A stretch of 64,000 nucleotides of DNA from Nitrososphaerota archaeon. GTDB taxonomy: Archaea; Thermoproteota; Nitrososphaeria; Nitrososphaerales; Gagatemarchaeaceae. The notes under the pieces are model-generated. The model did not search any database. It was not told the DNA's origin and was given only the letters and a program-made list of their open reading frames with translations. Location of the stretch: assembly GCA_016200045.1 (NCBI GenBank), contig JACQFN010000002.1, forward strand, positions 226,473 to 290,472. Reading direction: 5' to 3'. Below, in pieces: positions 53,069 to 55,624 of this stretch. The position numbers and the translations under genes are program-made. The first letter of the stretch is position 1. Each line of letters opens with the position of its first letter.

Positions 53069-53663
53069 CGACCCGCTCCTGCTCGTTCTTCTTCTTCACG
53101 GAATGGCTGTTCGCATCCCCCTTGGCCGCGAGCATGATCTCGTCCGCGAGGACCTCTTCGACGCTCTTCGATGACGAGAACGCCGACTCCCTGACCCCTT
53201 CCGACATGAACCTCAGAGCGAGGTCTATCCTGCGGACCGGCGAGATGTCGACCGACTGGTGGTAGACGACCCCTCCGTAGCTCAGCCTCGTGGTGTCTTC
53301 GTTCGGGGACGCGTTCTCGACCGCCTTGACGAGCTGCTGGATTGGGTTCTGCCCCGTCTTCAGCTCGATTATCACGAACGCAGTCTTCACGATGTTGAGC
53401 GCGCGTTGCTTCTTTCCTCCCATCCTGCCGGTGTTCTTCGCGTACTTCTTCCCGAAGTGGCTCATCTGGTTGACGAGCCTCTCCACTATGTTCACCCTCG
53501 TCTTGCCGAACTTCTTGTGCTCGTGCCGGCCCCCTGAGTGTGGGACTAATATGGGCCTGAGGCTGATGACAGTCTGCAGACCGGGGTCCCCGATGGTGAC
53601 GCCGGTGAAGTCCCATCTCCCCCAGAGGAGGAGGTTCGGATACTCGAGGGACTGCCGACTCAT
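53052..53663 (-). CDS. rps7: ribosomal protein uS7
   Basis: [43 protein letters not shown]...[24 protein letters not shown]. Confidence 0.96.
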
Positions 53664-55624
53664 CTTCTCGGCTTCTCCTTCCTGCCGTAGACCAGCTCGT
53701 TGAGTGAAACCCCATTGACCTTGAAGACCTGCCAGCGGACCCCGGGGATGTCCCCCATCGCCCTCTTCATCGAGCCGCCGATTCCCTGGACAATCACTTC
53801 GTCGTGCTCGTCAACGAAGTTCAGGGAGCCGTCGCCGGGGAGGAACGCTGTGACCTGCTTTCCGTTCTTGACGATCTGCAAACGGACGCAGTTCCCGGTG
53901 AGAATCCCGTTTGCGAAGAAATTGTGGCTCGCATCGGAAATCGTGATGTCCTGTAGCCTCAGAGCTTCGGTCTTCACGACATCTACTACTTCATCCCAGA
54001 CCAGGCCGGCGGGGAGGTTCTTCGTAGCCTCGTCCTTCCATTCCGCAAAGCCTTCTCCTTTGGCGGTCGTGTTGAGCAGATCTGGATTCTGGACTCCATG
54101 CCACATCCATCGGTTCACGTTAGCAGTGTTTATCCAAACATACCCTTCCCTCCTGAGCGTCTCGGCGATTTCTCGATACGAAAGCCGACTGGCCCGAAGA
54201 ACTTGGGCCCTTGCATACGCCTTTACCGTCGCCTCCATTCTAGCGACCTTAAGGGACAAGAAGTGGAAAGCGTACCTGGCGAGGGCTTCCTTCCTGGGAG
54301 AATACGCATAGCCGATTCGGCCATACAGGGCCATTAGGCTCCGATGATTCGAGGCGATAGAGAGCCTGATCTTGAGCGAACGACTTCCGTCTTTGCGGAT
54401 AACCGAGGGTCTGATTCTGACGTTTGAGACTTGCACCCCGAATTCGTTCAGGATTTCCTGAATGTCGTTCACCAACTCGACGCCGCTGTCGACCAGGTCC
54501 TCCCTCTTGCTCACCTCGAAGGTCGGGGACCGGAAAGTCGGACCTCTGAATCCAGGTTTCTCAAGCTCGCTCCCGAAGTAGGCGGCGAGGAACTCTTTCT
54601 TTACCCAGTTGGGACCGTTCCGCACCCATTCAGGCAATCTGTACGGCACCGAGGCCCTTGCCCCTTCGGGGACTCCCAGAGCCCTGAGAAGCGTGAACAG
54701 AGCGATTGAAGTGACTGCGACGAGGTTGTAAGATCCTGAGATGATGCGGGCCCCGGCGGCGGTATTGACCACGCTGGTAGAGGACCCTTCATACATAGGA
54801 GAGGCATGGAAACCCAGGGCCTCTACATCCGCCGCAACGATCTTCAGGTCCTCAGGTGTGCCCGAGCCGACAATCTTCCCAGCGAATCCTGTCCCTGCCT
54901 TGCCATAGCTCATGTGACCGTCCCCGTATATGTGTCCAGCTAGCCTTACCAGAGAAGGAAGCGAAGTGGAATCATACCTGAGAGGCAAGAGTCCCTTTTC
55001 CTTCAGCGTCGAGACTATCCGCTCGCCGTTGGAGTTCTTCGGGACAGACGCGAATACCTGGGCTTCTTCGAGGAAGACCTCTTTCGAAGATTCTCGCTTG
55101 AGGGGGTCGGACGGAAGTACAGCTACCTTTGCCCCCGGCCTCAGTTCCCTCGCGTCGACAATCTTGCCGTCAGAGTAGACTGGATGGTCCCCGCTCATCT
55201 TCAGCCGCCGCCCCGATTGAGTGACGATTTCGTACGAGTCAGACTTCGCAGCTTCCATTCTGTCGAGTTCGAAGGCGTCTACTAGCTTCGTGGACCCGAC
55301 AGTAAAGTTGTTTGTGTCCAAGTAGGCAACAGAAGGCCACGAGTCGGCCGCAACAATCTCCCCCATGGTGACGTATGTACCGTCTGCGAGAATGACCCTT
55401 GTGTCTGGCGATACGCACTTCCGGATCGCCGAGTTCGGCTGCTTCGACTCGATCCCGACCTTCTCCAGTACGATCCCCCTGGCCTGGGGAGACCCCTCGA
55501 GCGGGTCCGACTTGTAGTCGAGCCCCAGCTTGGCCCTCTTGTACCACTTGTTCGACCAGCGGAGCTTCTGCCTCTTCATCGTAATCTGTCTGGCGGCGAA
55601 TTCTCCGCGAGGGGAGTGTGGCAT
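53660..55624 (-). CDS. rps12: ribosomal protein uS12 containing an in-frame intein
   Basis: N-extein ...[28 protein letters not shown] and C-extein [76 protein letters not shown] together form a complete uS12. Confidence 0.97.
53891..55417 (-). mobile_element. intein (509 aa) with LAGLIDADG homing endonuclease inserted in uS12
   Basis: Cys1 [22 protein letters not shown] (block A), [21 protein letters not shown] (block B), [16 protein letters not shown] and [15 protein letters not shown] (DOD motifs), [15 protein letters not shown] (blocks F/G); internal [18 protein letters not shown]...NVNRWMW. Confidence 0.96.

Follow-up and report, generated by a model that had tools for sequence, protein, structure and literature searches.

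A predicted class 1 intein with a LAGLIDADG-type endonuclease in archaeal ribosomal protein uS12

According to a survey as quoted in PMC5784728, more than 60% of known prokaryotic inteins reside in replication, recombination and repair proteins. The intein described here, which interrupts ribosomal protein uS12, shares its layout with archaeal RtcB inteins (NF038162), namely a Hint domain, two LAGLIDADG motifs, an HTH region and a C-terminal Hint part, and the NF038162 model matches it at 280 bits. RtcB inteins nonetheless occupy a different host protein and site and form a separate tree branch, and the RtcB intein of the same genome is 27% identical to that of uS12. The nearest relatives outside uS12 are inteins of RNA polymerase A' (RpoA') from Woesearchaeota and Diapherotrites and of Pus10. 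These end in HNFFANGFLT(G/K)N or LVSN, likewise without the usual penultimate His, but differ in host gene and insertion site. Natural inteins lacking this His, including an RNA polymerase A' intein, have been demonstrated to splice. The closest relatives also include inteins of Aenigmatarchaeota in a gene read as the tRNA pseudouridine synthase Pus10 (L120-L123) and an intein of G626 (L164) whose Cys1 adjoins the CxxxCxxC cluster motif of a radical SAM protein (AmrS / pyruvate formate-lyase activase-like). Among solved structures, the TliVMA intein and PI-PfuI, which combine a Hint domain with a two-motif LAGLIDADG domain, have the closest folds, although sequence identity is about 16% over the fold alignment and the hosts differ. 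The catalytic pair of PI-PfuI is Asp/Glu.

The window, meaning the whole 64,000-nucleotide stretch that was analyzed, belongs to genome G000 (97% complete, 1.54 Mb). Its uS12 gene, at 53660-55624 on the minus strand, is an uninterrupted ORF of 654 aa, and both ORF ends matched TIGR00982 (uS12_E_A; E=1.1e-64) in a family-model search. Features of the gene are as follows.

55418-55624, minus strand: uS12 N-extein (MPHSPRG...KQPNSAIRK), from uS12 models and empty-allele alignment
53891-55417, minus strand: intein of 509 aa, Cys1 to Asn509, from TIGR01445, TIGR01443 and PF14890; boundaries identical in 20 complete copies
55181-55195, minus strand: splicing block B, SGDHP (intein residues 75-79); His78 invariant in 20/20 complete copies
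54914-54946, minus strand: LAGLIDADG motif 1 (catalytic Asp166); Asp in 18/20, lost in G318 and G425
54554-54592, minus strand: LAGLIDADG motif 2 (Glu284); Glu in 18/20, lost in G318 and G425
54092-54235, minus strand: HTH-like region between the endonuclease and the C-terminal splicing part; helices in the predicted structure, weak Pfam HTH_32 match, deleted in G318 and G425
53891-53962, minus strand: splicing blocks F and G; Asp490, His498 and Asn509 invariant in 20/20, penultimate Gly or Ser in all
53660-53890, minus strand: uS12 C-extein, beginning with Cys+1 and including the stop codon, from uS12 models and empty-allele alignment

An earlier note had read a 509-aa intein in uS12 at 53891-55417, and intein-family models bear this out with exact coordinates. 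The insert comprises precursor residues 70-578; TIGR01445 (intein N-terminus) matches its start at 37.9 bits against a cut-off of 24.5, TIGR01443 (intein C-terminus) matches its end at 24.1 against 15.6, and PF14890 (Intein_splicing) exceeds its cut-off. The site had been placed in the PNSA loop; it is indeed beside that tetrapeptide, but not within it, the junction falling between Lys and Cys of uS12 three residues past PNSA (PNSAIRK/C, slash marking the boundary). The insert is in frame and, as had been claimed, its excision restores uS12, since the exteins, once joined, can be aligned with intein-free uS12 alleles. G000 was searched family by family for further genes, and an intein-free second rps12, which the earlier note had named as grounds for refutation, was not found in a PF00164 search of the 1.54-Mb genome. 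Archaeal introns also bear LAGLIDADG enzymes, and an endonuclease-encoding intron removed from RNA, rather than a protein-level element, might be considered. Such an intron is extremely improbable given a frame that is open and in phase across the whole insert in all copies, with Hint splicing blocks at both ends and a Hint fold.

Cys1, His78, Asn509 and Cys+1 are present in all 20 complete copies, confirming the earlier reading of both nucleophiles and block B. The insert thereby has a nucleophile at residue 1, a block B His, a C-terminal Asn and a +1 nucleophile, as expected of a class 1 intein, and empty uS12 alleles share the Cys that serves as Cys+1. Blocks F/G of the window copy include LQDITI and the intein C-terminus reads ...LTGN. 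The penultimate His, which is usual but not obligatory, is replaced by Gly or Ser in 20/20 complete copies (Gly in the window), and block B of the window intein has Ser at the usual Thr position. DnaE inteins in which Ser or Ala replaces the block-C1 His have been described (PMC5874633). The missing His and the block B Ser could slow splicing. The same two departures would also suit a Hint domain that is dead or only cleaves, in a genome where another gene supplies uS12. However, Gly or Ser is common to all 20 copies, those with a dead endonuclease included; the latter could hardly persist without splicing; and no other uS12 gene was found in G000. We consequently regard loss of splicing as very unlikely and retain the reading of a probably splicing-competent intein.

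The second DOD motif, FLAAYFGSE, has Glu in place of Asp as its presumed catalytic acid, and this Glu is kept in 18/20 complete copies. Structure prediction of the intein (AlphaFold, 12 homologues) gave a model with pLDDT 92.7 and pTM 0.90, whose best Foldseek matches were the TliVMA intein and PI-PfuI, followed by PI-SceI, free-standing LAGLIDADG enzymes (I-AniI, I-SceI, I-DmoI) and mini-intein Hint domains. The Hint fold is evident from Foldseek matches to mini-inteins, among them Mtu RecA and Ssp DnaB, and from PF14890, and the LAGLIDADG fold from Foldseek matches of the predicted structure. A phmmer search of the intein against PDB sequences yielded nothing significant, matches coming solely from the fold search. 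Pfam LAGLIDADG models, including LAGLIDADG_3, were below significance for the window copy, and assignment of the endonuclease therefore rests on motifs and fold. The two DOD motifs and internal HTH reported earlier stand: both motifs are acidic, the second with Glu, and an HTH-like region is modelled, with a weak HTH_32 match. Collectively, these data support an intein whose endonuclease has a LAGLIDADG-type fold, together with an HTH region and a full set of splicing residues.

An insertion at the identical uS12 site was found in 22 genomes, 20 of which give complete intein copies with an identical codon boundary. Eight occupied genomes belong to the window's Nitrososphaerales family, six to a second Thermoproteota family (G117, G226, G184, G318, G425 and a partial copy in G463, with at least 17 genomes empty), four to the order of the 'Crenarchaeota 13_1_40CM_3_52_10' MAG (G465, G1220, G1223, G1232), two to Aenigmatarchaeota (G464, G540) and two to the phylum of a Woesearchaeota MAG (G992, G1108). 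The comparison of empty and occupied rps12 genes proposed in the earlier note was carried out by searching relatives with the precursor; it gave 7 occupied versus 24 empty uS12 genes, the empty ones mostly of the same genus, and an eighth occupied gene was found later. In that first search, the six other occupied precursors share 57-67% identity with the one in the window, and most congeners in the window's family have an empty uS12. The best matches listed for the phylum of a Heimdallarchaeota MAG (227 genomes) included no uS12 insertion, and no relative turned up among viral contigs scanned with the intein alignment. The intein-bearing gene of G026 (L024, 1124-1163) is complete except that, directly upstream, uS12 lacks its first 46 residues, which a local assembly error might explain.

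Because the window derives from a draft assembly of 25 contigs, the intein gene might have been joined to rps12 in silico by chimeric assembly or binning, a refutation already named in the earlier note. We reject a chimera, to which we assign almost no probability, because 22 genomes share the insertion at one codon boundary, among them G117 (2,077,567 bases) and G184, each a single-contig chromosome. Flanking gene order is also kept, with the block uS7-uS12-NusA-L30e-RpoA found in both occupied and empty members of the window's family. G153, with an empty uS12, is likewise a single contig, of 2,374,137 bases.

Nineteen of the 20 complete uS12 inteins form one clade (support 97/97). The G1108 intein alone groups with RpoA' inteins (92/86, tree with 20 copies), which suggests a possible second invasion of the same uS12 site. 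A strict single origin, in keeping with the one clade obtained with 15 copies, was thus abandoned. G000 groups with G027 in the intein tree of the window's family. In the host tree, built from uS7, uS12 exteins, NusA, L30e and RpoA, G027 instead pairs with G024, and intein and host data sets reject each other's topology (AU p below 1e-50). Intein presence on a 23-tip host tree implies at least six changes. In the order containing G465, compared exteins are 100% identical, yet the inteins are of two types just 51% identical. Patchy presence among relatives and conflict with the host tree are the marks of a homing intein and, as judged from sequence, the uS12 inteins are evidently a homing, horizontally moving family. 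Third-position GC is 0.66 in the intein versus 0.87 in its exteins; the intein therefore does not have the codon usage of its host gene. Co-conversion was considered for the sequence CCRVQ, seen in occupied G024 and G033 only, and was set aside as too thin to claim.

Both catalytic acids are gone from G318 and G425 (GDG to SSG, SE to GA), as is the HTH region, and the remaining 449-aa inteins retain an open frame and all splicing residues. Such decay is what would be expected late in the life of a homing endonuclease whose host gene is essential, because splicing stays compulsory while cutting does not. In closer pairs, dN/dS was approximately 0.04-0.16 for splicing parts and 0.08-0.20 for the endonuclease part, rough values because many dS are near saturation; synonymous sites within the window's own family are near saturation, and dN/dS there was given little weight.

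G000 is rich in inteins, with hosts assigned by reading as an AtpA-type ATPase, RadA, MCM, RtcB, ribonucleotide reductase and CDC48 (L083, L084, L085, L087, L088, L090, L092), and the same set includes a 2-oxoacid:ferredoxin oxidoreductase beta subunit with an insert at WCPG/CGDFG. Another apparent intein (L089, G000:C19:168393) lies in an aromatic-amino-acid ammonia-lyase-like (HutH-type) gene, its host also named by reading. It splits the Ala-Ser-Gly triad, the usual source of the MIO cofactor, between Ala and Ser (GSLGA/C...HN/SGDL), and the MIO serine would accordingly be the +1 Ser. In G031 (L010), the archaeal peptide chain release factor aRF1 has two intein-like inserts, making it a second translation protein in the window's family to serve as host. 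RpoA of G027 (L149) and G034 (L147) is interrupted by approximately 1-1.5 kb near residues 957-989, probably by further inteins.

We propose that the sole uS12 gene found in G000 very probably carries a self-splicing, homing class 1 intein with an embedded LAGLIDADG endonuclease and HTH region. By the standard class 1 route, an acyl shift at Cys1 would begin self-splicing of the precursor, followed by transfer to Cys+1, a conserved native Cys of uS12; Asn509 would then cyclize without the penultimate His and normal uS12 would be released. That uS12 natively offers a conserved Cys as Cys+1 may be why this site was usable. The endonuclease would cut intein-less rps12 alleles at the conserved site, and repair of the cut gene would copy the intein in. 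Once fixed, the intein would make splicing compulsory, because every ribosome needs uS12, and the endonuclease might decay. It is unlikely that splicing is conditional, with Cys1/Cys+1 and the atypical penultimate Gly/Ser making it sensitive to, for example, temperature or redox state. If so, the intein would be a switch on ribosome production and not a pure parasite.

The earlier note knew of no well-characterized uS12 intein, and the open-access literature likewise gave no report of one, or of an intein in any ribosomal protein. An earlier mention in the supplementary table of a survey is possible, and novelty accordingly means 'not found' rather than 'proved absent'. The mechanism is already known; a universal ribosomal protein as host appears new. 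As uS12 adjoins the decoding centre, an intein clade at this position means that the ribosome itself is open to such parasitism. Carrier cells should, on the sequence evidence, rely on protein splicing for every ribosome, with one intein produced per uS12 and 509 of the 654 precursor residues (approximately 78%) discarded. The uS12 intein would thus provide a natural test of how fast and how complete splicing is required to be, and the whole homing cycle, with empty, active and decayed states, is visible in one essential gene.
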